From Pseudocercospora fijiensis CIRAD86 (lineage: Eukaryota; Ascomycota; Dothideomycetes; Mycosphaerellales; Mycosphaerellaceae): a DNA stretch of 64,000 nucleotides. Both the position numbers and the translations under genes were made by a program. Position 1 is the first letter of the stretch, and each line of letters opens with the position of its first letter. Where the stretch lies: contig NW_006921542.1 of NCBI RefSeq assembly GCF_000340215.1, positions 1,330,267 to 1,394,266 on the forward strand, in the 5' to 3' direction. Shown piece by piece: positions 4,661-52,550 of the stretch. The notes under the pieces are model-generated. The model was not told the DNA's origin, searched no databases, and worked only from the letters and a program-made list of their open reading frames with translations.

Positions 4661-6499
4661 GTGTTCGGGGTACCGACTCGAATTGCTAGCTCGAGTCGCG
4701 TCTACTACTTAGCTATATCTTAGCAACGACAGTCCGTAGAGTTATACCGGTTATAGCAAAGTTATTCGGAAATACTAGGTATACGAGCTTATATAGGTCT
4801 TAGGTAGGTTAGTAATAATCTATTTCGAACCTTCTAAGTCGCTAGTAACTAGCGTCGGCAAAGTAACGAGAACTTAGTACTACTATACCGGGCGCAGTTA
4901 TATCTAGTAAGGAAGTCGATTAGAAGTACCTTCCGAAGGGCCTCGAGTTAGTTTAGTTAAAAATAAAGAGGGGTGTTACTACCGCTATTTCCGATATAGA
5001 CGAGAACTCGATAGCGAGAAGTCGCGCGTAGGTACGTATAGCGAAGAAGTTAATCGGATAGCCCTAATTAAGGACCTCTAGGTATTAACTTAGTATATAG
5101 CGATATATTGAGAATCGGTGTATTTAGATAGGCGGATAGCTATAGAAGTAGGCTCGGCTAAATTAGTATAACTTAGCGCGTATACGTCGCATATACGAGA
5201 TTTTTAGATCGTTAGACTCGCAATTAGTAGGGCTACAACCTCCTTGTATTGGATTTGCTAGTTGTCGTTAGTATAGCGAGATCGTATTTTAATAGCGGAA
5301 TCTACGATAAAAATCAGCGGTTTAGCTTTAGGCCTTTAGGCAAAGGATTAGGTAGAGTAGTATATAATTAGTTGTTCGGAAAGACGGAAGCTAGCCCTAA
5401 TTTAAATCTATTACGTACAATCTAACCAATTCACTACCGCGTAACGTAATCCTTAATATATAAAGGCCTAAACGGAGGTAGGTAATTAGATAGGCAACTC
5501 GGATACCTTCTTATAAGCCCTCGCTTATACGGGCGGACCGTTTAGTATATAAATGAGGCTATCGCCGCCGTAGGGACTACGACTTAAAAGTAAGGGAGTA
5601 GTTAGCGGGTTAGAGCCTAAGGCATAGGCAAGCGGGCTTAGTATTAGTAAAAGATACCTCTAACTCGATAGAGACTTTATACTTCTAAATAACGATACTC
5701 GAATACAAGGCCTGCAACACGTCTACTAATACTATACTTATATAGACCCTAAAAATCGATATATACCCTATTAAGGTAACAATCCGCCTTTAGGGTTCTT
5801 CTCGACTTTGTCGTCTATCGGACCTTATAGTAAAATGTGCTCCTAGGCGGCTAGCGCGTGCCTAGAGGAGTGCGAGCGAAGCTTTCGCCTTATATATACT
5901 AAGCTAATTCGGTTCTTTAGACCTCGAAGCTAGACCTTGAAGCTATTACTATTATTATACGATTTAGTTCTATTAGAATAGTTTATTAGGAATAAGTATT
6001 TTTATATTTTTGTATTACTATTTTTCTTTTCTAGTATTTTAGATACTACTTTATTATTTTTAACTTTATATATATTACTTACTTTTATTCTAGTTTTCTC
6101 TAATTTTTTATATCTATTACTACTTTTTATATTATGAAAAAAACTATTTTTAATTTTTTTCTTTAATGTTTTACAGTTTTTCTATTTAGTATCTTACTTG
6201 TTTTACTTACCTATTTTATATTTTCTTATTTATTTTTATTATATGTTTTCTTTTTTCTAATACGTCTAAGTCCTCTTATTGATATCCTTATTTATTACTT
6301 GTTTTCTATCTTACTACTTAGTTTAGTACTAGCTTATTATTTAGTCTATTAATTAGCTTATTATTTAGTTTATTATTTACTTTGTTCTCTAGTTTTTTAT
6401 TTAATCTATTATTTGCTTTATTATTTAGTTTCTTCTCTAGTTTATTATTTACCTTCTTTTTAACTTTATTATAAGTTATTTATTTACTAGAATATAATT

Positions 6500-6835
6500 T
6501 ATTTTATTAATTGTTTAACTAATTGTTTAACTAATTGCTTTACTAATTGTTTAATTAATTATTTAATTAATTGCCTTACTAATTGTTCTACTATTGTTTT
6601 ATTTATTGTTTTATTAATTGTTTTGTTAATTGTTTTGTTAATTGTTTTGTTAATTGTTTTATTTATCGTTTTATTAATTGGTTTATTAATTAGTTTGTTA
6701 ATTGTTTTGTTAATTGTTTTATTAATTGTTTTGTTAATTGTTCTATTAATTGTTTTATTAGTTGTTTTATTAGTTGTTTTATTAGTTGTTTTATTAGTTG
6801 TTTTGTTTGTTGTTTTGTTAATTGTTTTACTAACT
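6500..6835. repeat. 12-bp minisatellite
   Basis: The unit ATTGTTTTGTTA (with TTAATTGTTTTA variants) repeats about 25 times. The unit length is a multiple of three, so the plus frame reads an artificial L-I-V-L-L repeat from 6623. I regard that reading as a by-product and not a protein. The array lies in AT-rich DNA at about 5990-7170 that is otherwise featureless. Confidence 0.9.
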
Positions 6836-7275
6836 AGGATAGTACCCGTACGTAAGTACTTCTGCTCCTTCTACTTACGTAGTAATAGCGGTAGCGCCCG
6901 CGAGTTTTTAAATTTTATATATACCTAGTATAGCGGAGCCGCGAATTTTAGGGTTCCTCGCTCTTATTCTCGCTCTCGTTCCTTTAATATTTTTTCGGTA
7001 ATTTTATAAATTTAAATCGTATGTTTTCTATAATTAAAATTAATTTTTCTATAGGTTCTTTTATTAAAAGTTGTTTTATAAATTCTTTTATTAATGTTTT
7101 AGTTAATTTTCTTATTAATTTTCTTATTAATTGTTTGTATATTTTACTATATATTTTACTATATATTTGAAGTATTAGAAGGAAGGCAAAAGGCTTTACT
7201 AGCGGTTGTTCGGGAAGTCGGCGCTTGTTCGGGAAGTCGGCGCTTGTTCGGAGATACCGGCGCTAGCTCCGAAAG

Positions 7276-25804: not shown

Positions 25805-27115
25805 CAATAACGCAATCTTTGCTCCTTTAAGTTCTTTTTAATATATCTTTTTATATAGAGGAGTTATAGCTTAACAATGTAGAACAAAAATACTCTAATT
25901 TGTATTTATTTTTAGAAAATAATAAAATTTCTAGTCGTTACCTATTGAATTTATAGGCTATATAGCCTAAAAGTCTAATTTAGAAGTTTAACAATTTTAG
26001 CATTTTTTAGGCCTTAGCATACTATTTTTAGTAATCTAAAATCTAGATCTTATAGTTTCATCTTATAAAAATCTAAATCTCAATTTATATATTATTATAT
26101 AAACTATTAGTAATATAATCTAGAAAGGAATATTATTTTCTTACTATATTCTCGTTAGTTTATCTTTTTATTTAGAAGAGCTATAGCTTAGTAATATAAG
26201 ACAAATATACTTTAACTTTTATGTATTTTTAGAAAATAACTAAAACTATTATAGCTATATACTAAGATTAGCCTAAAACTCTTAGGTAAAGATTTTAAGA
26301 TTTTAGTATTTATTAAGCCTTAGTATACTATTTTAGTAATCTAAAACCTAGACCTAAAAGTTTTACCTAGTATAAATATATTTTGGGATTCTTATTTTAA
26401 TACGCTTACTATTAGTCTTAAAATCCTAAAGCGAATATTCTTAACAATTGTAGGCTTAGCAATTTAAAGTTTACAATTCTTAAGAATATTCTTTTCTAAG
26501 TTATAAGACTATTTATAGCTTATTTAAAGTAAAAGCTTTAATATAGTTTCCTACTAGGTGAAACTATTAGGTTTAGGTTTTAGATTACTAAAAATAGTAT
26601 ACTAAGGCTTAAAAAAAGCAAAAGTCTTAAAATCTTTATTCTAGAATTTTAGGCTAATCCTAGTAGATAGCTATAACAATTTTAGTAATTTTCTAATACT
26701 AGATTAAGAACAGATTATTTTTGTCTTATATTACTAAGCTATAACTCGTCTAAAGAAAAAGATATACGAAAGGGAACCTAAGAAGAATTTAAGTTTTAAA
26801 TTCTAGATTATAGAACTAATAGTAGCTATATTACGAGAAAAATCTCAAAATAGATTTTTATTAAGTAAAACTATAAGGCCTAGTTTTTAGATTACTAAAA
26901 ATAGTATATTAAGACTCAAGAAAACGCTAAAATTCTAAAATCTCTAACTTAGAGTTTTAAGCTATATAGCTTATTAATTTAGGAGGCAACGACTAGAAAT
27001 TTTAATATTTTCTAAAAATATATATAAATTAGAGTATCTTTGTCCTATATTATTAAGCTATAACTCCTCTAGATAAAAAGATATATTAAAAAGAACTTGT
27101 AGGGGCAAAGATTGC
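25805..27115. mobile_element. 1.3-kb palindromic foldback element
   Basis: The left arm begins CGCAATCTTTGCTCC near 25810. The right end near 27112 is its inverse (GGGGCAAAGATTGCG). The inverted similarity continues through both arms (for example the left GAGGAGTTATAGCTTA against its complement near 27060, and AGTCGTTACC against its complement near 26990) to an axis near 26460. Each arm has two related modules: the outer and inner parts both carry a TATCTTTTT...AGCTATAGCTTA-type block, the inner pair lying near 26160 and 26760. No ORF is present. It is AT-rich and RIP-altered. It looks like a non-autonomous foldback or MITE-like element, possibly one copy inserted in another. Confidence 0.85.
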
Positions 27116-36009: not shown

Positions 36010-38481
36010 AGGCGACGAGTAGCTAAAGTCTTATCTAGACGCCTATAGTAGGCCTAATCTAAAACGCGTATAGTAAGTTATATCTAAAACGCTAATACTA
36101 AAAAGTAATATTAATCCGGAACGCGTTATAGATATTAGAAAGCACTATTTAGAAACGCTTATAGCGAGCACTATTAGGAACGCTTATAGCAAGATAGTCT
36201 TAAATATCTATAGTAACTACTTCCGGAATATGCCTATAGTAATTACTATCCGGAATACCTATAGCGAGTACTATTCGAAATATCTATAGTAAGTAGTTCT
36301 TTCCGAGTTAGAACGCTTATAGTAAGTACTACCTATAAGGCGTATAGTAAGTACTACCTATAAGGCGGATACTAAGTCTAATCTAAAACGACTATAGGAA
36401 TTCTTATTTAGAACGCTTATAATACTAAGTACTATTCGGAACGCGTATAGTAAGTCTAATCCGGAGCGCTAATAGTTAGTACTACTATCTATAACGCCTA
36501 TACTAAGTTTTATTTAGAACGCGCTATATAGTAATTCTAATCCGAAACGCTTATACTAAGTCTTATCCGGAACGCGTATAGTAAGTACTATCCGGAACGC
36601 GTATAGTAGGTCTAATTCGGAACGCTAATAGTAAGTACTACTAAGAACGCCTATAGCAAGTAGTACTTTCTAAAATACCTATAGTAAGTACTATTTAGAA
36701 TACTTATAGCAAGTTATATCTGAAACGCCTATAGTAAATGCTACTAAAAACGCTTATAGCGAGTAGTATTATTCGAAACGCTTATAGCGGTAACTATCCG
36801 AGATATCTATAGCGAGTAGCACTATCCGGAACGCCTATAGCAAATACTATCTAAAACGCCTATAGGCTATAGTAAATAGCATTAGAACTACTTTTAGCGG
36901 ATACCCTATATAACGCCTACTACGAGTACCTTATAAAACGCCTATAGCGAGCACTCTATAGAACACCTATAGCGAGTAGTACTATACGGAACGCGTAGGA
37001 GTCGATAGGACAAGCCTTATTTTAAACGCTTAGTATAGTTAGTCCTATATAAACCGGAACGCGTATACTAAGTCTAATCTAAAACGCTTATAGAAAGTCT
37101 TATCCGGAATGTATAAATTAAGTCTAAGTCTAATCCGAAACTAAATACTTATATTAAGCACTATCCGGAAGGCCTATAGGCTAAGACTATAGCGAGCAGC
37201 ACTATCCGGAACGCTTATAGTAAGTACTATCTAAAACGCCTATAGTTAAACAGCATTCGAACTATCTATAGCGAGTACCCTATATAACGCCTACTCTAAG
37301 TACCCTATAGAACGCCTATAGCGAGTACTCTATAGAACATCTATAGCGAGCAGTACTATCCGGAACGCGTAGAATAAGCTAACTGTTACTAACAACGCCT
37401 ATAGTAAGGCTAACTTAGAGCACTTATAATAGTAAGTACTATTCGGAACGCGTATAGTAAGTCTAATCCAGAGCGCTAACAGTTAGCACTACTATCTAAA
37501 ACGCCTATACTAAGTTCTATTTAGAACGCGCTATATAGCAATTCTAATCCGAAACGCTTATACTAAGTCTTATCCGGAACGCGTAGAGTAAGTACTATCC
37601 GGAACGTATATAGCAAGTCTAATTCGGAACGCTAATAGTAAGTACTACTAAGAACGCTTAAAGCAAGTAGTACTATCTAAAATACCTATAGCAAGTGCTA
37701 TTTAGAACACCTATAGTAAGTCTAATCCAAAACGCCCGAAACGCCTATAGCAAATACTGCTAAAAACGCTTATAGCGAGTAGTAATATTCGAAACGCTTA
37801 TAGCGATAATTATCCGAGATATCTTTAGCGAGTAGTACTTTCCGGAACGCTTATAGTAGATACTATCTAAAACGCCTATAGTTACTAAATAGTATTCGAA
37901 CTACTTATAGCGAGTACCTTATATAACGCCTACTACAAGTACCTTATAAAGCGCCTATAGCGAGTACTCTATAGAATACCTATAGCGAGTAGTACTATCC
38001 GGGGACCGGAACGCGTAGGACAAGCTAACTACTATCTATAACGCCTATAGAAAGTCTGATTTAGAACGTTTATAATAGTAACTTAGTAAGTACTATTCGC
38101 AACGCGTATAGCAAGTCTAATCTAGAGCGCTAATAGTTAGTACTATTATCTATAACGCTTATACCAAGTTCTATTTAGAACGCGCTATATAGCAATTCTA
38201 ATCCGAAACGCCTATACTAAGTCTTATCCGAAACGCGTAGAGTAGATACTATCCGGAACGCGTATAGTAAGTCTAATTCGGAACGCTAATAGCAGGTACT
38301 ACTAAGAACGCCTATAGCAAGCAGGACTATCTAAAATACCTATAGTAAGTGCTATTTAGAATACCTATAGCAAGTTATATCCGAAACACCTATAGAAAAT
38401 ACTACTAAAGACGCCTATAGCGAGTACTCTATAGAATACCTATAGCGAGTAGTACTATATAGAACGCGTAGGACAAGCCTT
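36010..38481. repeat. 25-26 bp satellite array, left part
   Basis: Repeats of a unit like CCGGAACGCCTATAGCAAG followed by TACTAT fill the segment. Longer phrases recur, for example GGACAAGCCTTATTTTAAAC and GGATAAGCTAACTATTATC, which shows a higher-order organisation. The DNA is RIP-mutated (TpA-rich, CpG kept). No coding potential. The array continues after the transposon insertion. Confidence 0.9.
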
Positions 38482-38489
38482 ATTTTAAA
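38482..38489. other. target site duplication, left copy
   Basis: ATTTTAAA directly precedes the left terminal inverted repeat and is repeated at 48447-48454. The uninterrupted phrase CCTTATTTTAAACGCTTAG occurs elsewhere in the satellite (for example near 37016), showing the empty site. Confidence 0.95.
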
Positions 38490-38509
38490 TAGACCCCGCA
38501 GTGGTTCGG
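38490..38509 (+). repeat. left terminal inverted repeat
   Basis: TAGACCCCGCAGTGGTTCGG, perfectly complementary in inverse order to 48427-48446. Confidence 0.97.
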
Positions 38510-38921
38510 GTTGGTTTGGTTTGGTTTGCCAAGCCGAAACTCTAGTTTGGTTTAGGTTGGTTTGCTAAGCAACTATATAAGTAGCTAGTTCGAACTATAT
38601 AATTTATCGGTTTTTAAGAAGTGTACGAATGTATACGTAGCTTTAAGCAAGCCCTTTGTAAGACTCAGCAGTGTGGCCGGCAGCGTAGCCGGCATTTTTA
38701 GTCCTTAGTACTTATAGAATTTTCGAATCCTACTTAGGCTACGTAGTTGTATAAAGGTACTTATATAACCTCAAATCCATAGACAATCAGCTAAGGGTAC
38801 TAACTAATCAAAAGTATATATATATATACACAAGGCATTATAGTTCAGTTCGGAAACTGCACTCCTTAGGTATGAATTTCATCCTTTCGTTTACGGTTCA
38901 ATTCCCTAACTGCTTAGCAGA

Positions 38922-39461
38922 ATGTCTTTATCTAGATCTAGGCAGAACTTATCGATTTCCCTAGAAGTCCTCCTCCTTAAGAAGTTTATACACTTTCCTA
39001 CCGAACTATTCGATAATATTAAGTACTAGGATAGCTCCTCCCTCGGTATCGGTATAGTATATAAAAGAGCTATAAGGCAGCTCTATAGAACGTTCTACTA
39101 GTCACTCGCTATACTAAGGCCGAATGCTAGTTCGTTCCTTAGAACTCTTAGTCATTTAGGAGATATAAAGGGTAGGGCAGGTAGTAACTTCGTATTGCAT
39201 AAGGAGGTAGAGGCTGCTATAGAAGAGGCCTTCAACCTGTAGAAGATAGTAAAAGATATAGAGGTAGCTATAGGTCTAGGTACCTAGTTGAATTTTCAGT
39301 AGGTAGAGTATAAGGATATTTAGAGGGAGTATTAGGTAGAGTTGCGAAGGCAGGTATATAATATGCTCTAGAAAACAGGGATAGTGCCTATAACTATAAC
39401 TATTAGGCTCTTCAACCTTCCTTATTTTTCCCTGTTTTCTTTTTATAAAAATCTAAACTAA
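38922..39461 (+). pseudogene. transposon cargo gene 1, unknown function
   Basis: An ATG at 38922 opens a frame that runs 179 codons to TAA at 39459-39461 when the internal TAG codons are read as mutated Gln or Trp. Segments such as LEVLLLKKFIHFPTELFDNI, HKEVEAAIEEAFNL and LRRQVYNML look like a real helical protein. No domain is recognised. It is the only plus-strand gene of the element, the nearest to the left end, and convergent with the first histone gene. Confidence 0.55.
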
Positions 39462-39755
39462 TACAAATCAACCGGAATGTCTATCTTCTTTTAGTTCTTT
39501 AAAAAACCTAGTAGCGTAGCTAGTAGCGTAGCCGGCAGCGTGGCCGGCAGCGTAGCCGGCCTTTTTACTCCTTAGTACTAACGGGATTTTGGGAGACTTC
39601 TATTCCGTACGGCTAATAAAGTATACTATACTATATATATATACTTAGAGAGTATTTAGAGCGCGGTATACAGCGCCGTATAACAGCGGCTTATTTCGTA
39701 TATAGAAAAGCTTGCAGATAATACTACGAATATCCTTTCTACTAGAACATCTATC

Positions 39756-40485
39756 CTACCTAGTACCGTCTCGAATGTAGACATTCTAGCCTTTTAGAAT
39801 CTGATCGAGTGCTTTAAAATCCTTGTCTATAATCGTTATACGCTTCGCGTAGATAGCTATAAGGTTGACCGCTAAAATAGTATTAGCATAGTCCGAAAAG
39901 AGGTAGAAGAGAAACATACATTCGAAGATACGAACTAGGTAGGCTTCTGCAGCCTCTTAAAGGGCGCCTATCGCGGAGGCTTAGAAGCGAAGGTCCGTTC
40001 TATAATCCTAGGCAATTTCGCGAACAAGTCGTTAGAAAGGAGTTTTACGGATTAGGAGCTAAGAACTCTTCTAATACTGCCGAATCTTACGGAGGGCTAC
40101 GGCTAAAGAAGGATTAGTAAAAAGATAGTAAGAATGCCGGCTACGCTGCCGGCTACGCTGCCGGCTACGCTGCCGGCTACAAATAGGACTTACTTCCTAG
40201 GCGCTATCGACGCTTCGCACGATTACTACTAGCAGCAGAAGCGCTAGTTGTCGTCTTGCGTAGAGCCTTGCCCGCCGTTGTCTTACGCGGAGCCTTGCCC
40301 GCCGTTGTCTTACGCGGAGCCTTGCTCGCGACGCCCTTTCTAGTACCGGAGCTAGTAGTAGTAGCAGCAGCTATCTTACGTTGATGTACTGTACTCGTTC
40401 TACTATTTCCGATCTTGTTACGACCCGTAGAAGTAGTAGGTCCCTTCTTGCGAGGCGTCGTAACTTAGTTAAGTAGACTCGCTAT
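39756..40485 (-). pseudogene. histone H3-like gene A, RIP-inactivated, three exons
   Basis: Exons on the minus strand are 40485-40194, 40102-39920 and 39871-39756 (591 nt together, 196 codons plus stop). Introns of 91 and 48 nt have GTAAGT/GTATGT donors, CTAAT branch sites and TTTAG/TTTTAG acceptors, and splicing restores frame exactly. The first join gives GTVALRKIRQY as in H3. Then come LLIRKTPF*RLVREIA*D, RTDLRF*ASA, AL*EAAEAYLVRIFES and AIYAKRITIIDKDF. In the histone-fold exons that align with H3, the stops fall where H3 has Gln. The N-terminal tail is about twice the normal length and repeats GKAPRKTTA, recalling H3 GKAPRK. The Met codon is mutated (ATA). Histone H3 packages DNA in nucleosomes; this is a divergent variant. 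The loop 1 length is H3-like and not extended as in CENP-A. Confidence 0.9.
40120..40187. repeat. GCCGGCTACGCT minirepeat in intron 1 of H3-like gene A
   Basis: Four tandem copies of GCCGGCTACGCT (40136-40180) form most of the intron. Related GCCGGC clusters occur in the other introns and gaps of the element. Confidence 0.9.
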
Positions 40486-41057
40486 TATAAAAGTCGTCGA
40501 ATTAAGGAAAAAAGTGCGTTGCGAAGGTATACGAAGGCGCGCGCGGAGCGAGGGTGTTACGGAGGTAGTAGATATAGAGCGTAGAGGTATAGGTATCGAT
40601 GCGAAGGTTAAATATAGCGGTAGTGTCGCGGTGTCGCTAGGCAATAGAGTAAGCTTCGCGCAAGCCTACATTATAGTGACGTTAGAGCAAGGAAAGAAGG
40701 CAGGCACGGCTAAAAAAGGCAGGCACGGCTAAAAAAGGCAGGCACGGCTAAAAAAGGCAGGTACGGCAGACTTTGAAATATAGCCGGTATATGTAGCCGG
40801 CATAGTAATAGGCGAAAGCCTCCTTTTAATGAATAGCCGGCGTGATAATAGTATCCTACTATAGTATAGATATTCTTTAGTAATGCCTTTACTAGCTATA
40901 GTAATCTTATAAGTAACCTAGGCCTATTGCTAGTAAATATAAGAAATATTAGGTAGGCTATACTAAACAAGCTAGTCATTTAGCAGGAAAAGGCCTACTA
41001 CCGTCTCTATATGCCGGCTACGAGTGCCGGCTACGAGTGCCGGCTATCGCTCTAAAT
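40486..41057. other. transposon spacer with minirepeats
   Basis: It contains GGCAGGCACGGCTAAAAAA three to four times (about 40699-40765) and GCCGGCTACGAGT clusters near 41010-41045. A 72-codon plus-strand ORF at 40514-40732 overlaps the expected promoter of H3-like gene A. Its end is a translation of the repeat, so I do not accept it as a gene. Confidence 0.6.
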
Positions 41058-41772
41058 TCAACTCCGCCCTATCTCGGAGGCTAAGGTACCGAGCGGAAAC
41101 CCTACAGCTTATATTTACTCGGTTGTCGCGGAGCGCTTACAGGTGAGGTATTAGAAAAGAGTATAAAAAGTACGAGAAGAGTATCCTAGGATATAGGTCG
41201 TAAGTGAATAAGAGTAGCACGCCTAGTTATTTATATAGTACGTTACTCTATACGACTAAGAGCCTATATTATCTCGTGCTTCGCTTATAAGACCTCGACT
41301 CTACTAATATACTATTATTCTCCTGCTCGGTCGCTGTCTTAAATCTTCTTCGAGTTGCTAGACTTAGTGCGTATCTATAGCTATGCAATAGCGCTACGTA
41401 TTATAGAGAATCAACTCCGCCGTATCTCGAAGGCTAAGGTACCGAGCGGAAATCCTATAGCTTATATTCACTCGGTTATCGCGGAGCGATTATAGGTAAG
41501 GTATTAGAAAAGAGTATAAAAAGTACGATAAGAGCATCCTAGGATATAGGTCGTAAGTGAATAAGAGTAGCACGCCTAGTTATTTATATAGTACGTTACT
41601 CTATACGACTAAGAGCCTATATTATCTTATGCTTCGCTTATAAGACCTCGACTCTACTAGTATACTATCGATCTCCTCCTCGGTCGCTAATACGCTATCT
41701 TAATTCTTCTTCGAGTTGCCGGACTTAGTGCGTATCTATAGCTATACAATAGCGCTACGCATTATAGAGAAT
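41058..41772. repeat. 353-bp tandem duplication inside the transposon
   Basis: Copies at 41058-41410 and 41411-41772 both begin TCAACTCCGCC and end ATTATAGAGAAT, with roughly nine tenths of bases the same by eye. The duplicated segment is part of the 3' region of cargo gene 2. Confidence 0.85.
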
Positions 41773-42055
41773 TTCTCGTTAAAGTTTCTCTCTCGTAGGC
41801 TTGCTATCTACCTCGTAGTATAGAGGATCAAAGTGCTAATACTAAAGAATCTCCTTATAGTTAGGATGCTAGGGCTCCTTAGGACCTTTGTATTTTAGGT
41901 CTGAATAGAGACGTATTATAAACGTTCTATCGCCCTTTCGCTTACTACCCGCTAGGTCGCGATATGCGAAGAAACTAATCTAAATGTAGCTCGTCTCTAT
42001 AAGAGCCGGGTGAATATAGAGCGCTAGGTTTCTACTTCGTACCTTAGATTTAGGG
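41400..42055 (-). pseudogene. transposon cargo gene 2, unknown function
   Basis: Minus-strand reading from about 42030 stays coherent through RIP stops: VPKSKVRSRNLALYIHPALI, FFAYRDLAGSKRKGDRTFI, HFDPLYYEVDSKPTREKL and VRQLEEELR. It runs into the 353-bp duplication. No family is recognised. The frame is the same as that of H3-like gene B just upstream. The two could be one fusion gene or two neighbours; a GCCGGC cluster at 42080-42105 favours a non-coding gap or intron between them. Confidence 0.5.
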
Positions 42056-42162
42056 ACGGCGCGGAGATAAAATTAGAAATGTAGCCGGTACCTATAGCCG
42101 GTAAAAGGATGCGAAAATAGGCCTCCTCCTAGGTTAATCTAACGACTAAATACAATTTCTAA

Positions 42163-42756
42163 CTAATCCGCTGTAAACCGACGCCGAATTTTAGCTAGAA
42201 GCTGCATATCTTTATTTTGAAGAGTAACCCGCTTCGTATAGATAGCAAGGAGGTTTAAAAGCTTAAGCTCGGTTACGAGAAATGCCTCCGTAGCTTCCTA
42301 AAGAGCACTAATCGCCTTAGCCGTAAATCGCATACTAGACCGAAAATCTAATGTAATTTCTCGGACGAGTCGCTAGAAGGGAGTCTTAGGGATTAAAAGC
42401 TCGGTCCCTCTTTTGTTTTAGAAAAGCCGGATCTAGCGAAGGGTAATAGTACCTAGTTTGAAGCGCCGCTTCTTTATCGTCGAGTCCTGCCTTATTCCCT
42501 TTCTTTTAATAGAAAGATAACTTTTCTTCGCGATAGTCTTCGTCCGCCTACTCTTTTTAGCCTTCTCCTGTCTACCTATAGCCTTCTTGTTTTTCGGTAC
42601 TGTTTTCCGAGGAACCCCCTTCCTTCGTATATACTACGGAGAGCCTTGCTCTTCCGATATCTCGTTCTCGCTACGGTCTCCCTATACTTGGCTTACTTTA
42701 CCCTTACCCTTTAGCCTCTAAAGATATTTATCTACGCGTTTAGGCGACGAGGGCAT
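42163..42756 (-). pseudogene. histone H3-like gene B, RIP-inactivated, no intron seen
   Basis: ATG at 42756 (MPSSPKRVDKYL), continuous frame of 198 codons to 42163. A basic tail of about 100 residues (KKAIGRQEKAKKSRRTKTIA) precedes a histone fold: LGTITLR*IRLF, ELLIPKTPF*RLVREITLDF, AISAL*EATEAFLV, then LLAIYTKRVTLQNKDMQLL and AKIRRRF. The long tail and the LLAIYTKRVTLQNKDMQL segment recall centromeric H3 (CenH3/CENP-A), but loop 1 is not lengthened, so the class is undecided. It differs strongly from gene A, so the two are not recent duplicates. It lies just downstream of the transposase, on the same strand. The end is uncertain because the terminal TAG could be a mutated codon. Confidence 0.85.
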
Positions 42757-43115
42757 ATCGGTAGGACCTAGAAAATTAATAAGTATATAATCGTAGGGAG
42801 ACATTAATGCTTCTTACCTTCTAGAACAAATAGTCTTCTATTAAACCGCCTTATTAGGTTATCGTTAGATTCGAATAAAGGATAGTAGCTTAAGGAAGGG
42901 GAGGCAGCCGGCTTAGGAAGGCCCGAAGAGCCGAATCCTTAAGGTATATTTGTCTTTAAGAATATAGGGAAAGGGAAGAAGGAGAGGAAGAGCGAATAGA
43001 GAATTAGAAATAGTCCGCAGGTAAGCGGGGTCGGTTGCTATAGCAACTAGTCTGTTTAGGTCCTAGGAATTCGAAACACATTTCGGATATATGCCGGCTA
43101 TATACGCCGGCTATA

Positions 43116-46100
43116 TTACCTTATACGTAAACGCTTCGTCTCCTTAAAGCTACTCTAAGCCTATATACGTTTCCGCTTCTCGACCCGGTATCGCCTTCTA
43201 CCTCCGCCCTCCTCCTCTTCGTTATCGCTAATTAGGGTTTCGCTTAGACTAAATTTCGTATTCTCTTCGCGCTCCTAGGTTTCTTCGATCTTAAGGTTTT
43301 CTAATTCCTCGATTAACTCCTTTAGTATAATCTTTAGTAACCTACCTTAGCGATTCTAGTAGAGGAGATAGTATCGGAATACTATAATAGATTCGAAGGT
43401 AGTAGGCGAGTATATTCGATTAAAGCGGCCCTAGTAACGAGCGATACTAAAAGACCTCTTATAGCCTATACCTACGCTCGGGATAGCGAGGACGTCCCGA
43501 GCGACCGACGCTATCGTTAGAAACTTAGGCTCTAACCGCTGCTATATAGCGAGAATATCGTCTCCGAATTCGTCTAGAAGACCGGTAAGATCTAGAGATT
43601 ATTAGCCCTCTTTCCGAGCCTACGGGTTTGTACTTACTCGCGCGCCGATAGAGATCGAACTCTTCCTTATTTACTTTAGTAGTTGCTTCCTCTTCTGCCT
43701 CTACTTCCTACCTACGAAATAGGTATAATATCGGAGCCTTCTAAACCTTCTTTTTCTTTGTAGGAGCTGCATTTAGACTAGTTTCTTTCCGACGCTCGTA
43801 GAATATCTTTTCTAGAATAGTCTAGTAATGCTTCGGCTATACCTCGTCCGCCTTCTATTCCGGCCTCTGCTAGTATATATCCTTTTCTACCGGGTTGAGC
43901 AAGTACGCAACGCTATAGATATCCCCGAACGAGTTAAAGGTAGTACTGTAATATTTATATAACTTAGTATAGGAGGTGTCTATAGCTTTCGTTATAGCTA
44001 CTTTCTAGGGAACGCTCTTCTTAGCTAGCTTAGCTACGGTTTCCTCGAGCTCGTTAAAGAGCTAGTTATAGTACGTAAAGATAAGGTAGATCGTCGGTCC
44101 TCGGGTTCTTCTAATCGTAGTAGTAACCTTCGCGTAATGCTTACCAATATCGACGAGATACTCTGCTTAGCGCTATTCGGCGGCGGTAAGGCCGAGCTAC
44201 TTAATACCCTCGGAACTCTAATAGATCTCGAGAGCGGTACGTAAAGTATATCCCCTCGTAACTATATAGAAAGTCGAATCGAACCGAGTCTTAACGTCTT
44301 AGGTAAAACGGAGTAGGCGCTAAGGAGGCCGCTTTTGCTATCGCTTATTCTATGCGATATTCTAGGTATCGGTTTTAGGGCGCTCGATTAGGTTCTTTTA
44401 AATAGCCTCGAATCGGTTATATCTCTATAAGCTCGAGTTCGTATATATTGCTAGACGACGAAGCTAGAGAAAAAGAGTTAGAACTATACTAGGTTGCCGG
44501 CTATAGGTACCGGCTACGGACAAAAGTTATACCTTATATAAAACGAGAGCGAGGCTCTCTGCCTTATCCCGTCTTATTACTATAATAAGTTTCTCGACTT
44601 TCGACTTTGCTTTATCCTTATCTAGGATCTTCTATTAGTCGTCGTTTAATAGTGCAATTTTAAGCGTCTTAAAGAGGGCTCGGATCGCGATTTGAACTAT
44701 ATAAGCGAGGTAGGGAAACTTCTATAGGGATATAACTAGCAACGACGTCGGCTCCGATTTAATAGGGCTAGGGCTATTAATAGGCTCCTCTTCATCGTTA
44801 TTATCGTGCGTATTGTCGTGCGTATCCGGAATCGTAGCGAGCTTAATATTCGGAAGATTAAGCTAGATTGTAGACCTTGTAATCTCCTCTACGCACTCGA
44901 CCCTATCGATACAATTAGTAATTTTAAAGACATATACGAGTGAATTGTATATACAACGCCTTATACAATGTTCGATTATTACTAGCGTTGTCCGTAGTAA
45001 TCGAGATTAGTTTCGTTATTACGCTAACCCTATCTATTACCGTATAGATAAGCTTCGCTATATCCTTACTAGTATAGGAACCTAGAATTTCAGGGAATCC
45101 GATTATAAGTTCCTAGAGTTTCTAATCCGAATTAATAAAGTATAGCATAATCGAGAGGAAGGAGGCTCTTATAGTCCGGCTTAACTAGCTATCGATAGCA
45201 ATAGCTACTCGGCGAGTATTACGGAGGATCTCCCGAATGTCGTCTAACGTAGCCTCTTTGTTCTTTTCGAATATAATACGCTAGGTTGTCGCGCCGAGAA
45301 ATAGGGGAGGGTAGTTTATAAGATATAGGTATGTCTTCTATATAGACTCCCTTTCGTAGAAGTCTTCCGGAAGACCGTTTATAGCTAGCATTTCGTTTGC
45401 TAGTTGCTTAAAGTCTTCGGGGGAGAAATCGGTAGCCTTCAATCCTAGAGCTTCCTTAAGCGTAGCCTATAATAATTAGCTAGATCTCTACGGTTGATTT
45501 AGGTAGCCGGAATCTATAGCCGGTAGCTATAGCCGGCAGCTATAGCCGGCATTTTAGAAGATATACCTCTTTCTAGAACGCTATATCTATATTAACTCTC
45601 CTCTCTCCTTAAGATTCCCGATACCGTTTAGAATAGAGATAGTTCGTAGGCGATAAGTTCCTATCCCCTAGTTTCGGGTATTTTAAGATTGAACCGTAGA
45701 AGTTATAGACAATTACTAGTTAACCTTTAAGTCGAGAAGTCGTATAACGGTACAATGCCCCCTCTATAAAGAACTTCTAGAATATATCCGTTCGCTCCTT
45801 ACTCCCCTATCGCATCGAGTACTTCCGGAGTTTACACTCCTTCGAACGTAAGTATAAAGGGAACTATATCTTATAGACCTATTAATTAAACTACTCTATA
45901 TACTCGGGTTTCTAAAGATACGCCTAGCTAGCCTTTTCGAAGATTTCCGGGTTAATACTCGATGTTCTTATATCTCCGAACAACCTTCTACTTAGACTCC
46001 GTAAAGGTAAGGACTAGGTAGTAGTACCCTATAATGAATTCCTACTACTAGGATTCGGAGAGGATGAATCTAGCCTTAATCGTCGTCTAGGACTCGATAG

Positions 46101-46232
46101 GCTCGAAGGTAAGTATACGACCTCCTCTCGACGTTGTCGCAATCTCGCTCGTATACTAGACTGTTTCGACTGTCGTCTCGTTATTACCCTTCCTAGTATA
46201 GCGCCTAGTGTATATACAATGTCGGTCGGCAT
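43116..46232 (-). pseudogene. hAT transposase, RIP-inactivated
   Basis: Reading through RIP stops gives a long transposase. A catalytic-core segment lies near 45190-44990: VAIAIDS*LSRTIRASFLSI, then TKLISITTDNASNN, with the acidic residues of hAT RNase H-like cores. The C-terminal dimerisation region lies near 43570-43390: RLEPKFLTIASVARDVLAIP, KRSFSIARY and YSPTTFESIIVFRYYLL, the hAT ARDxLxIPxS...RxFSxAR pattern. A charged tail ends at TAA 43118-43116. Two introns are inferred: 45566-45467 and 44532-44464, both with GCCGG repeats, GTATA donors and TAG acceptors. The start at 46232 (MPTDIVYTLGAI) is tentative, and the N-terminal part is poorly resolved. It would catalyse excision and integration of the element. 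Confidence 0.9.
44464..44532 (-). other. intron in the hAT transposase gene with GCCGG repeats
   Basis: A GTATAA donor at 44532, a CTAACT branch sequence and a CTCTAG acceptor at 44464 flank two GCCGG-type motifs. The open frame resumes on both sides. Confidence 0.65.
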
Positions 46233-46496
46233 GTTTTAAGGTTTCGTACGGTAAGGTAAGGACTTAGGAGTAGTAGATATATACTAGTAGCTATAGAGAA
46301 ACACCCTTTCTTTTATAGTATCGTATCGTTAGGAATAGCTAGGTAGTAAATAGCTAGCTACCTTCTTTTTTTGTTTCTTAGCTACCTAACTACTAGATTT
46401 TTTTTCCTAGCTACCCTAGCTAGCCTAACTACTAGAATTTCTTTCCTAGCTACCCTAACTACCTGAATTTTGCCTTCTATACGGCGGCTCTCTCCT

Positions 46497-47860
46497 ACTA
46501 ACGGAACCGAGCTACTATACCTAACGAATCTAAGCTCGTTTTTAGTCTTAATCTATCCTCTTTCGGTATAAGATACTCGATAAGCAAATGCTTAGGCCGA
46601 GTCTAACTACGAAACCTAAGACTAACTAATAGCTCTATTAACCAATCCTAATCCTCGAACTCCTTCCGCTTCTTAGTAAAGACCTTAAAGAGCGCTCGAG
46701 CTTCTTCGGGTACCTACGGAGTAGTCGAGATAAAGCCGTATCGCTAAAATAGGTAATCCTTCGGAGGCTTATATAGAGATTTAGAGAATTCTAACGCCAA
46801 CCTATCCTACTAGTAGCTTAGATTCCGGATACAAGCCCTCTCTGCCTTAGTAAAGATTTTATATAGCAGTAGCACTCTGCCTTCGAGAAACGCTTTCTGT
46901 TTAACTGTTAGTATCTGCCGGCTACGAACGCCGGCTATATATGCCGAGTATAGAATAATTACCTGTACCCCTTCCTCCTATAGTAATACTTCTACCGTCT
47001 CTAGATACCTAGCCCCGATCGTATTAATCGCAAGCCACTTTGCCTTTATAGACGTAAAGGCTTCGCTCTAATACTAATAAAGAAACTTCTACTCTATATC
47101 GAGGATATAAAGACGACTAGTCTCGATTCCAATCCTTGCTAGCTTTTCGTAGTAGCTTTAACTATGATTTTCTAGATTAATAGGACTTATGCCTTAGCCC
47201 TTTACTAGTATCTCGTCTCTTTGACTATGCTCGATCTACTCCTAGCGCTTATCGTCTATAGCGTTAGGCCCTAAGACTGCACCTGTTACTAGATCGACGT
47301 ATAGTATCTCCTCGCTTTTTTTAGTTCCTTTATTCGTAGTATTAAGCTCTATCGCGGCATCCTAAACTCTAGTATTGTTGTTCTCGGCTATCTAAATATC
47401 TCCGTTACTATCGGTCGTATCGATAGAGATAGCGACTATAGGTCTAAATGCTATTAGTTAACGTGTTAAAGAAAAATATACCGGCTACAGCTACCGGCTA
47501 CGGCTGCCGGCTATAGCTGCTAGCTACGGCCGCTAGCTAGATTGACTTACGCTACTAGAACTTTACGCTCGAAAACTAGCCGCAATTCTTTCCTCCTCTT
47601 AGCCTTCTCTTAGGTTGTCTTCTTATTCCAACCTTCACTTTTTTCTATAGGCGCTAGCTATCGATAGAATGCCTTATTCCGCGCCTTTCTTCTCTTATCC
47701 TTAGCTCTTTTATCCTTATCTATCTTGTCCTTTCTCTCGCGGTCTCGTACGGAATTCTTCTTCGTAGAGTACTCCTCTTTAGTCTTACGCTTTTTAGTTA
47801 GACGCTTAGGTAAAACAAACTCGCGGTCTTTAGTTCTATCTTCTATTTAGCGCGCGGCGC
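46497..47860 (-). pseudogene. transposon cargo gene 3, unknown function
   Basis: At least three exons on the minus strand: about 47860-47551, 47450-46963 and 46896-46497. They are separated by introns of 100 and 66 nt with GTAAGT/GTAATT donors, CTAAC branch sequences and AG acceptors; both introns hold GCCGGC repeats. The N-terminal exon is extremely basic (RKDKIDKDKRAKDKRRKAR). The middle reads ILYVDLVTGAVLGPNAIDDK and LYILDIE*KFLYQYQ. The end reads LEFSKSLYKPPKDYLF*RYG and ALFKVFTKKRKEFEDWDWLI. No domain is recognised. The basic N-terminus would suit nucleic-acid binding (inference). The 5' start was not located. Confidence 0.6.
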
Positions 47861-48119
47861 GCTTCTCTCTTACTATTATAAGGGAAAGGGGCGGGGGCGT
47901 AGCGTATAGTAGTTGTTATCGGTATAGGTATAGAGGAAGAAGTTAAAAGTGTAAGAATGTCGCGAAGCCCTAATTGTTGCCGCCTACGTAACGTTATATA
48001 GGTAAGCTTTCGCAACTACGGCAACTACGCCCCGGCAATAGCAACTACGCCCTAGCAACGGCAACTACGCCCTAGCAACGGCAACCACGCCCTAGCAACG
48101 GTAATAAAGCGTAGTAAAT

Positions 48120-48280
48120 ACAACCTAGTAACTATTATAGCCGGCAATCGTGGCCGGCAGTCGAATAAGAGTGTCCTTATAGCAAAACTACGCCCTAGCA
48201 ACGGCAACTACGCCCTAGCAACGGCAAAAGAGCGTAGTAAATGTAACAGAGTTACTATTATGGCCGGCAATCGTAGCCGG
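48120..48280. repeat. duplicated CGCCCTAGCAACGGCAACTA and GCCGGCAATCG repeats near the right end
   Basis: Repeats of CTACGCCCTAGCAACGGCAA (from about 48005) and two copies of GCCGGCAATCGTGGCCGGCA (48143, 48265) lie about 200 bp inside the right terminus. They could be subterminal transposase-binding repeats, but a similar array at the left end is shorter (38676-38695). Confidence 0.7.
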
Positions 48281-48426
48281 CAGTCGAATAAGAGTGTCCT
48301 TGTAGTAAAACCAATACAGTCTCTAGTTCAAACTAGGAATCTATATAGTTCGAAAAAACCAAACCGGAACTAGGGAGCTAGTTCGCCGCTAAGAAACCAA
48401 ACTATATACGTTTAGTGGTTCGGAAA

Positions 48427-48446
48427 CCGAACCACTGCGGGGTCTA
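48427..48446 (-). repeat. right terminal inverted repeat
   Basis: CCGAACCACTGCGGGGTCTA, the exact inverse complement of the left end. Confidence 0.97.
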
Positions 48447-48454
48447 ATTTTAAA
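48447..48454. other. target site duplication, right copy
   Basis: ATTTTAAA, identical to 38482-38489, followed by the expected satellite continuation CGCTTAGTATAG. Confidence 0.95.
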
Positions 48455-51400
48455 CGCTTAGTATAGTTGGTCCGATATAAACCGGAAGGCGTATACTATA
48501 CGCAAGTCTAATCCGAAACGCTTATAGAAAGTCTTATCCGGAATGTATAAAGTAAGACTAAGTCTAATCCGAAACTAAATACTTATACTAAGCACTATCC
48601 GGAAGGCCTATAGCGAGTAGTACTATCCGGAACGCTTATAGCAAATACTATCTAAAACGCCTATAGTTAAATAGCATTCGAACTATTTATAGCGAATACC
48701 CTATAGGGCCTATATAACGCCTACTACGAGTACTCTATAGAATATCTATAGCGAGTAGTACTATCCGGAACGCGTAGGATAAGCTAACTATCATCTATAA
48801 CGCCTATAATAGGTCTAATTTAGAACGCTTACAATACTAAGTACTATTAAGAAGGCGTATAGTAAGTCTAATCCGGAGCGCTACCTGTTAGTACTACTAT
48901 CTATAACGCCTATACTAAGTTTTATTTAGAACGCGCTATATAGTAATTCTAATCCGAAACGCTTATACTAAGTCTTATCCGGAACGCGTAGAGTAAGTAC
49001 TATCCGGAACGCGTATAGTAGGTCTAATTTAGAACGGTAATAGTAAGTACTATTACGAACGCTTATAGTAAGTAGTACTTTCTAAAATACCTATAGTAAG
49101 TACTATTTATAATACTTAGAGCAAGTTATATCCGAAACGCTTATAGCGAATACTACTAAAAACGCCTATAGCGAGTAGTAATACTCGAAACGCCTATAGC
49201 GGTAACTATCTAAGATATCTATAGCGAGTAGTACTATCCGGAACGCGTAGGACAAGCCTTATTTTAAACGCTTAGTATAGTTCGTCCTATATAAACCGGA
49301 ACGCGTATAGCAAGTCTAATAATCTAATCCGAAACGCCTACAGAAAGTCTTGTCCGGAATATATAAAGTAAGTCTAAGTCCAATCTAAGACTAAGTACTT
49401 ATACTAAGTACTACCCGGAAGGCCTATAGCGAGTAGTACTATCCGGAACGCCTATAGCAAATACTATCTAAAACGCCTATAGCAAACAGCATTCGAACTA
49501 CTTAGAGCGAGTAGCCTATATAGCACCTACTACGAGTACCTTATAAAACGCCTATAGCGAGCACTCTATATAATACGGTATATCTATAGCAGTAGTACTA
49601 TCCGGAACGCGTAGGACAGGCCTCATTTTAAACGCTTAGTATAGTTAGTTCTATATAAACCGGTACGCGTATAGCAAGTCTAATCCGAAACGCTTATAGA
49701 AAGTCTTATCTGAAATGTATAGAGCAAGTCTAACTATCTAAGTCTAATCCGAAACTAAATACTTATATTAAGTACTATCCGGAAGGCTTATAGCGAGTAG
49801 TACTATCCGGATTGCGTATAGCAAGTCCAATCCGGAGCGCTAATAGCAAGTACTATTAAGAACGCTTATAGCAAGTAGTACTATTAAATTACCTATAGTA
49901 AGTACTATTTAGAATACTTATAGCAAGTTATGTCCGAAACGCTTATAGTAAATACTACTAAACCCGATTATAGCGAGTAGTAATATTCGAAACGCTTATA
50001 GCGGCAACCGTCTAAGATATCTATAGCGAGTAGTACTATCCGGAATGCCTATAGCAAATACTATCTAAAACGCCTATAGTTTAATAGTATTCGAACTATT
50101 TATAGCGAGTACCTTATATAACGCCTACTACGAGTACCCTACAAAACGCCTATAGCGAGTACTCTATAGAATATCTATAGCGAGTAGCACTATCCGGAAG
50201 GCGTAGGATAAGCTAACTATTATCTATAACGCCTATAAAAAGTCTAATTTAGAACGCCTATAATACTAAGTACTATTTAGAACACAAAGGTCTATTTAAA
50301 ACGCGCTATATAGCAATTCTAATCCGAAATGCCTATACTAAGTCTTATCCGAAACGCGTAGAGTAAGACTATCCGGAACGCTAATACCAAGTACTACTAA
50401 GAACGCTTATAGCAAGTAGGACGATCTAAAGTACCTATAGCAAGTGCTATTTAGAATACGTATAGCAAGTCTAATCCGAAACGCCTATAGCAAATACTAC
50501 TAAAAGCGCTTATAGCGAGTAGTAATATTCGAAACGCTTGTAGCGGTAACTATATCATCCGAGATATCTATAGCAAGTAGTACTATCCGGAACGCTTATA
50601 GCAAACACTATCTAAAACGCCTATAGCAAACAGTATTTTAACTACCTATAGCGAGTACCCTATATAACGCCTGCTACGAGTACCTCAGAGAACGCCTATA
50701 GCGAGCACTCTATAGAATACCTATAGCAAGTAGTACTGTCCGGAACGCGTAGGACAAGCCTTATTTTAAACGCTTAGTATAGTTAGTCCGATATAAACCG
50801 GAACGCGTATAGCAAGTCTAATCCGAAGTACTGCTAAGAACGCTTATAGCAAGTAGTACTATCTAAAATACCTATAGTAAGTACTGTTTAGAATACTAAT
50901 AGCAAGTTATATCGGAAGCGCTTATAGTAAATACTACTAAAAACGCTTATAGCGAGTAGTAACATTCGAAACGCTTATAGCGGTAACTGTTTAAGATATC
51001 TATAGCGAGCAGTACTATCCGGATCGCCTATAGTAAAGACTATCTAAAACGCCTAAAGCTAAACAGTATTCGAACTACCTATAGCGAGTACCCTATATAA
51101 CGCCTACTACGAGTACTCTATAAATATAGGAATTTCAATTTAGAACACTTATAATCCTAAGTACTATTTAGAACGTATATAGTAAGTCTAATCCGGAGCG
51201 CTAACAGTTAGTACTACTATCTATAGCGCCTATAGTAAGTTTTATTTAAAACGCGCTATATAGTAATTCTAATCCGTAACGCTTCTACTAAGTCTAATCC
51301 GGAACGCGTAGCGTAAGCACTATCCGGAACGTATATAGCAAGTCTAATTCGCAACGCTAATAGCAAGTACTATTAAAATTTAAGCACGCTTATAGCAAGC

Positions 51401-52550
51401 GGTACTACCTAAAGTGCCTATAGTAAGTACTATTTAGAATACTTATAGCAAGAAGTACTATATTATATCCGAAACGCTTATAGTAAATACTATTTCAAAC
51501 GCCTATAGGAAATAGTATTCGAACTACCTATAGTAAGTACCCTATATAACGCCTACTACGAGTATCCTATAGGGCGCCTATAGCGAGTGCTCTATAGAAT
51601 ATCTATAGCGAGTAGTACTATCCGGAACGCGTAGGACAAGCCTTATTTTACACGCTTAGTACAGTATAAACCGGAAGGCGTATAGCAAGTCTAATCCGAA
51701 ACGCTTATAGAACGTCTTATCCGGAATGTATAAAGTAAGTCTAAGTCTAATCCGAAACTAAATACTTATACGAAGCACTATCCGGAAGGCCTATAGCGAG
51801 TAGTACTATCCGGAACGCTTATAGCAAATACTATCTAAAACGCCTATAGTTAAATAGCATTCGAACTATCTATAGCGAGTACCCTATATAACGCCTATAG
51901 CGAGTACTCTATAGAATATCTATAGCGAGTAGTACTATCCGGAACGCGTAGGATAAGCTAACTATTATCTATAACGCCTATAATAGCTCTAATTCAGAAC
52001 GCTTATAATACTAAGTACTATTTAGAACGCGTATAGTAAGTCTAATAACTCTAATCCGGAGCGCTAACAGTTAGTACTACTGTCTATAACGCCTATACTA
52101 AGTTTTATTTAGAACGTACTATATAGCAATTCTAATCCGAAACGCTTATACTAAGTCTTATCCGGAACGCGTAGAGGAAGTCTATCCGGAACGCAAATAG
52201 CAAGTACTATTAGGAACGCTTATAGCAAGTAGGACTATCTAAAATACCTATAGTAAGTCCTATTTAGAATACTTATAGCAAGTCTAATCCGAAACGCTTA
52301 TAGTAAATACTACTAAAAACGCTTATAGCGAGTAGTAATATTCGAAACGCTTATAGCGGTAACTGTCCGAGATAGCTATAGCGAGTAGTACTATCCGAAA
52401 CGCTTATAGCAAATACTATCTAAAACGCCTATAGTTAAATAGGATTCGAACTATTTATAGCGAGTACCTTATCTAACGCCTACTATAAGTACCCTATAAA
52501 ACGCCTATAGCGAGTAGTACTATCCGGAACGCGTAGGATAAGCCTTTCGA
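48455..52550. repeat. 25-26 bp satellite array, right part
   Basis: Same unit and higher-order phrases as the left part; the phrase containing CCTTATTTTAAACGCTTAG occurs again near 49256, 50760 and (diverged) 49620 and 51640 at irregular spacing. About 6.6 kb of satellite is present in total, excluding the transposon. No gene. Confidence 0.9.

Follow-up and report, generated by a model that had tools for sequence, protein, structure and literature searches.

Histone H3-like genes carried by hAT DNA transposons are already known from print, in two papers. In Pseudocercospora fijiensis, Dhillon et al. 2019 (PMC6710886) described a family of 784 H3-like sequences in 471 elements, of which 133 are 9.5-9.9 kb long and 99 are complete, with 20-bp terminal inverted repeats (TIRs) and an 8-bp target site duplication (TSD). 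Each of these elements holds one or two H3-like sequences, all of them inactivated except the host gene on scaffold 6; the authors inferred capture of an intronless H3 transcript, noted a 16-amino-acid insertion in one H3 copy, and reported a comparable event for five species related to P. fijiensis. Their elements were described as having no nucleotide similarity to those of Pyrenophora, for which Manning et al. 2013 (PMC3538342) had reported an H3-like gene with expressed sequence tags (ESTs) in a hAT element. The Pyrenophora tritici-repentis forms are 5.6 kb (10 copies) and 2.3 kb (16 copies) long, with one H3-like gene (H3L) each and very similar copies. The results listed by literature searches included no recognised account of H3-carrying hAT elements beyond these two. 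Here we analysed 64,000 nucleotides of P. fijiensis CIRAD86 (hereafter the window; contig C11, bases 1330267-1394266), in which positions 38490-48446 form a complete hAT-type element of 9,957 bp that carries two H3-like genes, H3a and H3b. An earlier note on this DNA had taken such histone cargo to be unreported, which the published work on P. fijiensis, its five relatives and Pyrenophora corrects. We consider it probable that the element is a copy, killed by repeat-induced point mutation (RIP), of a high-copy transposon that is very likely the published P. fijiensis family, that likely moved by cut-and-paste, and whose two H3-like genes were likely intron-bearing, working genes and not a retrocopied transcript.

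The element is bounded by exact 20-bp TIRs (TAGACCCCGCAGTGGTTCGG; left, 38490..38509, plus strand; right, 48427..48446, minus strand) and flanked by identical 8-bp TSDs (ATTTTAAA; 38482..38489 and 48447..48454). The genome search covered 73,937,190 bases in 30 contigs, where the TIR sequence, allowing ≤1 mismatch, occurred 149 + 149 = 298 times and its reversed control 0 times. Twenty copies, that of the window included, were fetched for comparison. The other 19 align to the window element piecewise, at 90-97% identity and with a few gaps, and an exact 8-bp TSD is present in 17/20 copies, with 17 different sequences; the flanks of L034 and L039 are not identical, and the left TIR of L029 was missed by the search pattern. 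The core exons of both H3a and H3b are present in 20/20 copies, and a diverged stretch lies in the H3a tail of L042. Copies with transposase only, or histone regions as separate insertions, were sought among the 20 copies and none was found, both H3 cores being in place throughout. The histone genes belong to the element. TIR pairs in inverted orientation and 373 bp apart were also seen at C7:1843928-1844300 and C14:62379-62751, possible short non-autonomous derivatives.

Assignment to the hAT superfamily is based on the 8-bp TSD (17/20 copies), the short TIRs (20 bp, without mismatch in the window copy) and a C-terminal dimerisation domain. The transposase is encoded on the minus strand in several exons with approximate boundaries (43320..46200). 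At E ≤ 1, its C-terminal segment (43320-43589, minus strand) matches Dimer_Tnp_hAT in 20/20 copies, with a best E of 1.1e-4; at 17.8 bits, the window copy stays under the curated cut-off of 21.4. The earlier note's description of a complete hAT element with a perfect 20-bp TIR and an 8-bp TSD is thereby borne out. For the RNase H-like catalytic core, looked for in the middle part of the transposase, TNP-like_RNaseH_N was matched in 3/20 copies with a best E of 0.026; SelB-wing_3 was matched most often (17/20 copies, best E=0.0036) and was regarded as chance. A search for transposase homologues among 5.8 billion proteins gave 0 of 7,992 scored candidates at E ≤ 0.001.

To identify the histone genes, frames of the element were read with X in place of stops and searched with Pfam. 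Two minus-strand regions matched Histone (H3a, E=1.3e-14; H3b, E=4.9e-21), in agreement with the two H3-like genes that the note had recognised from the sequence. H3b also matches solved histone H3 chains in the PDB (E=1.5e-20). Core identity to the host H3 is 70% for H3a (57/82) and 54% for H3b (47/87), and the two cores are 55% identical to each other (45/82); together with the Pfam and PDB matches, these identities assign both to the histone fold of the H3 type. Protein searches returned 7,982 matches for H3a, the best 120 of which are 51-66% identical and carry animal, plant or algal names, labelled H3 or centromeric H3 among others; a fungal transposon H3 was not recognisable among these best 120. 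For H3b, 12 matches were obtained among 126 candidates, at ≤55% identity.

Both genes are predicted to contain introns. H3a, on the minus strand, reads from a tail exon (40194..40476, its limit not fixed by a start codon) through predicted intron 1 (40103..40193, 91 nt, GTAAGT...TTTAG), exon 2 with the histone fold (39920..40102) and predicted intron 2 (39872..39919, 48 nt, GTATGT...GCTAATAC...TTTTAG) to exon 3 (39786..39871, with TAG at its end). With the two predicted introns left out, the H3 match is continuous, through RLGTVALRKIRQY and IFESVNLIAIYAKR. Intron 1 has a GT donor and an AG acceptor in 20/20 copies and is 91 (17 copies), 103 (2) or 67 nt long (1); intron 2 is 48 nt in 20/20, with GT or AT at the donor (10 copies each) and AG at the acceptor (20/20). 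The tail exon measures 283 (15 copies), 256 (4, which have one 27-nt unit fewer) or 252 nt (1), exon 2 measures 183 (19) or 194 nt (1), and exon 3 measures 83 nt in 20/20. Intron 1 splits a codon adjacent to the one split by intron 2 of the host H3, in the same phase. The 27-bp repeats of the H3a tail (40250-40330) code for three KAPRKTTAG-like units that resemble the K14-K18 part of the H3 tail.

H3b, also on the minus strand, has a predicted exon 1 (42818..42947, 130 nt), a predicted intron within the tail (42768..42817, 50 nt) and exon 2, which comprises the basic tail and the histone core (42175..42767, core 42465-42175, end not fixed by a stop codon). Each of its coding stretches (130, 302 and 291 nt) has a single length in 20/20 copies; the predicted intron is 50 nt in 17/20 and 49 nt in 3/20, with acceptor AG in 19 copies and AA in 1. 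For both genes the intron reading is supported because the predicted introns have splice-like ends and their removal restores the H3 match, and because the lengths of the H3b intron and of H3a intron 1 vary where H3b coding lengths are constant. At the donor, 12/20 copies have GC and 8/20 have GT. GC-AG introns are a minor class already known, and GC may be the older state of this donor, since RIP converts CpA to TpA.

A second family of related elements (L051-L053, plus L054 adjoining L051) was noticed through the shorter spacing of its histone matches. Over the main pieces it shares 74-80% DNA identity with the window element; it has a variant TIR, observed at one end, and contains H3b in three copies and H3a in one. 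The H3b intron is 51 nt in this family, and the reading frames on either side of it are preserved in both families. Its H3a tail has two KAPRKTTAG-like units. L054 has no counterpart of about 38618-39572 in the window element. This missing segment, which includes a plus-strand coding relic of no assigned kind (38922..39404), is flanked by a direct repeat of 67 bp (82%; 38668-38734 and 39535-39601); what lies between the repeats may have been inserted or duplicated later in family 1, that of the window element.

For the analysis of selection, only transversions fixed between the two families were counted, because RIP cannot produce transversions; gaps, and sites at which either family mixes purine and pyrimidine, were excluded. 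In H3b, fixed transversions number 10/291 in the core, 23/309 in the tail and 35/133 downstream, with 15/179 upstream, where the predicted exon 1 and intron are included; transversions are thus fewer in the core than in either flank. In H3a, the core has 32 transversions at 264 sites, 17 of them at third positions, and the tail has 24 at 249 sites, 5 of them at third positions. Pooling the two cores gives 22 third-position transversions versus 20 others (one-sided p=0.006, assuming that third-position sites make up one third and other sites two thirds of the cores). These signals, which are modest and partly post hoc, lend modest support to selection on the histone fold.

The element bears the signature of RIP: the observed/expected ratio of CpA is 0.28 within it, whereas gene-rich stretches of the window reach 1.17. 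The copy, which the note had judged dead, is inactivated by RIP-type mutation. All 150 scored places (of 779 candidates) in a genome search with H3b carry stop codons, and a corresponding search with PF00125 (150 scored of 772 candidates) left 2 places free of stops: C6 holds the host H3, and C5 an exon of a centromeric H3 (L050). Linkage between sites was assessed across the 20 copies after exclusion of every column that contained N, a gap or three bases. There were 708 polymorphic sites in RIP context and 41 with transversion differences; of the site pairs formed by 591 informative sites, a fraction of 0.703 showed all four combinations, versus 0.706 (sd 0.001) in shuffles. Pairwise copy distances retain some structure (sd 19.0 versus 12.0 shuffled). 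With RIP sites nearly unlinked from copy to copy, RIP-type mutation hit the copies largely independently, after spread from near-identical sources. Movement of already dead copies, considered in view of several stops common to 20/20 copies, was rejected: saturation fits better, and RIP sites are nearly unlinked.

The H3 genes are likelier to be the element's own working genes because of the predicted introns, the presence of both H3 genes in the second family, the modest constraint and the independent RIP after spread. Several observations weigh against this. The three introns (91 and 48 nt in H3a, 50 nt in H3b) are predicted from sequence alone, the H3b donor is GC in most copies, as counted above, the H3a intron 1 position is one codon away from the host position, and two H3a coding stretches have off-frame lengths in one copy each. 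In the selection analysis, the H3b stretch taken as a whole was tested first and gave no signal (16 of its 42 transversions fall at third positions, p=0.31); core, tail and flanks were separated after that result, the H3b core by itself has 5/10 transversions at third positions, and the family 2 data for H3a come from one copy. Between families, the H3a introns differ less than the exons do (1/138 versus 56/513), for which we have no explanation. Finally, identity with the published P. fijiensis family, which we regard as very likely, is drawn from its published description and not from its consensus sequence.

The main competing account is the one published by Dhillon et al., in which a hAT element captured an intronless host H3 transcript that was carried along unused and decayed through RIP. 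That paper shows deRIPped H3-like sequences in which exons join directly, with no introns between them, the H3b core has no internal intron, and the tails look unconstrained in both genes, all of which would fit an unused passenger. We nevertheless consider passive capture unlikely, since introns are predicted in both H3a and H3b, the two genes, mutually only 55% identical, are both retained in the second family, and the cores show modest constraint; an intronless retrocopy of the host H3 does not agree with the structures predicted here. The published 16-amino-acid insertion is most simply the predicted intron 2 of H3a, because 48 nt equal 16 codons. An origin of H3b as a captured centromeric H3 (CENP-A), which could let the element act at centromeres, would suit the 2/12 H3b database matches that are Yarrowia centromeric H3 proteins and a host that has its own centromeric H3 exon (L050), and is very improbable because from alpha-2 to the C-terminus H3b matches the host centromeric H3 at 26/53 positions versus 25/53 for the host H3, showing no preference, and the best 60 of 176 PDB matches are all named histone H3.

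Under our preferred reading, that of a transposon with working H3 genes of its own, near-identical source copies would have spread in a burst, probably by cut-and-paste with the element's own transposase, and meiotic RIP would then have silenced the copies. The H3 genes are predicted to have been open frames before RIP, and their putative products would be built into nucleosomes, where they could be of use to the element within the chromatin of the host. We propose only tentatively the broader idea that H3-bearing hAT elements form a lineage that keeps a diverged H3 pair under selection, placed in nucleosomes so as to favour movement or escape from silencing. If the H3 genes do have introns and selected cores, the published captured housekeeping transcript would become a transposon keeping its own histone variants. 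In species whose copies are unmutated, Pyrenophora being an example, this reading makes clear predictions about splicing, selection and incorporation into chromatin, all of which are measurable there. The note's suggestion of possible active relatives is partly covered by published work, in the H3-like ESTs reported from Pyrenophora (PMC3538342).

Further features of the element and its surroundings were recorded. A minus-strand coding relic of no assigned kind lies at 46500..47440; neither it nor the plus-strand relic at 38922..39404 has a Pfam match. A tandem duplication of about 353-361 bp occupies 41058..41772 (units 41058-41410 and 41411-41772), and blastn pieces suggest a single unit in L035, L038 and L047. 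The motif TAGCCGGC occurs 24 times in the window versus 3.17 expected for the whole of it, with 22 occurrences in the element (38686..48281) and 2 outside. These are grouped in about a dozen clusters, one of which, with four motifs, lies inside H3a intron 1. Subterminal motifs of hAT elements bind transposase, and the clusters could be transposase binding sites; their distribution, however, spans the whole element. Rfam at gathering scores matched nothing across the window. The element is embedded in a long array (36032-38459 and 48785-52516) of degenerate 25- and 53-bp AACGCCTATAGTAAGTACTAT-like repeats, itself RIP-like in composition. Elsewhere in the window, positions 6001-7000 and 26001-27000 have only 20-23% GC, and 6001-7000 is built of 12-bp TTTTATTAATTG-like repeats.

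With the published P. fijiensis family (PMC6710886, as described there), the window element shares its size, TIR and TSD lengths, number of H3 genes, hundreds of copies, RIP inactivation and an intact host H3 on scaffold 6. It differs in the three predicted introns, the dimerisation match, the TAGCCGGC clusters and the second family; the paper reports no dimerisation domain and no repeats for the family. To the published account our analysis adds the introns predicted in both genes, the occurrence of the H3 pair in a second family, modest signals of core constraint and independent RIP. With the Pyrenophora tritici-repentis hAT element (PMC3538342), likened by description, it shares a transposase, a further open reading frame and an H3-like gene between TIRs.

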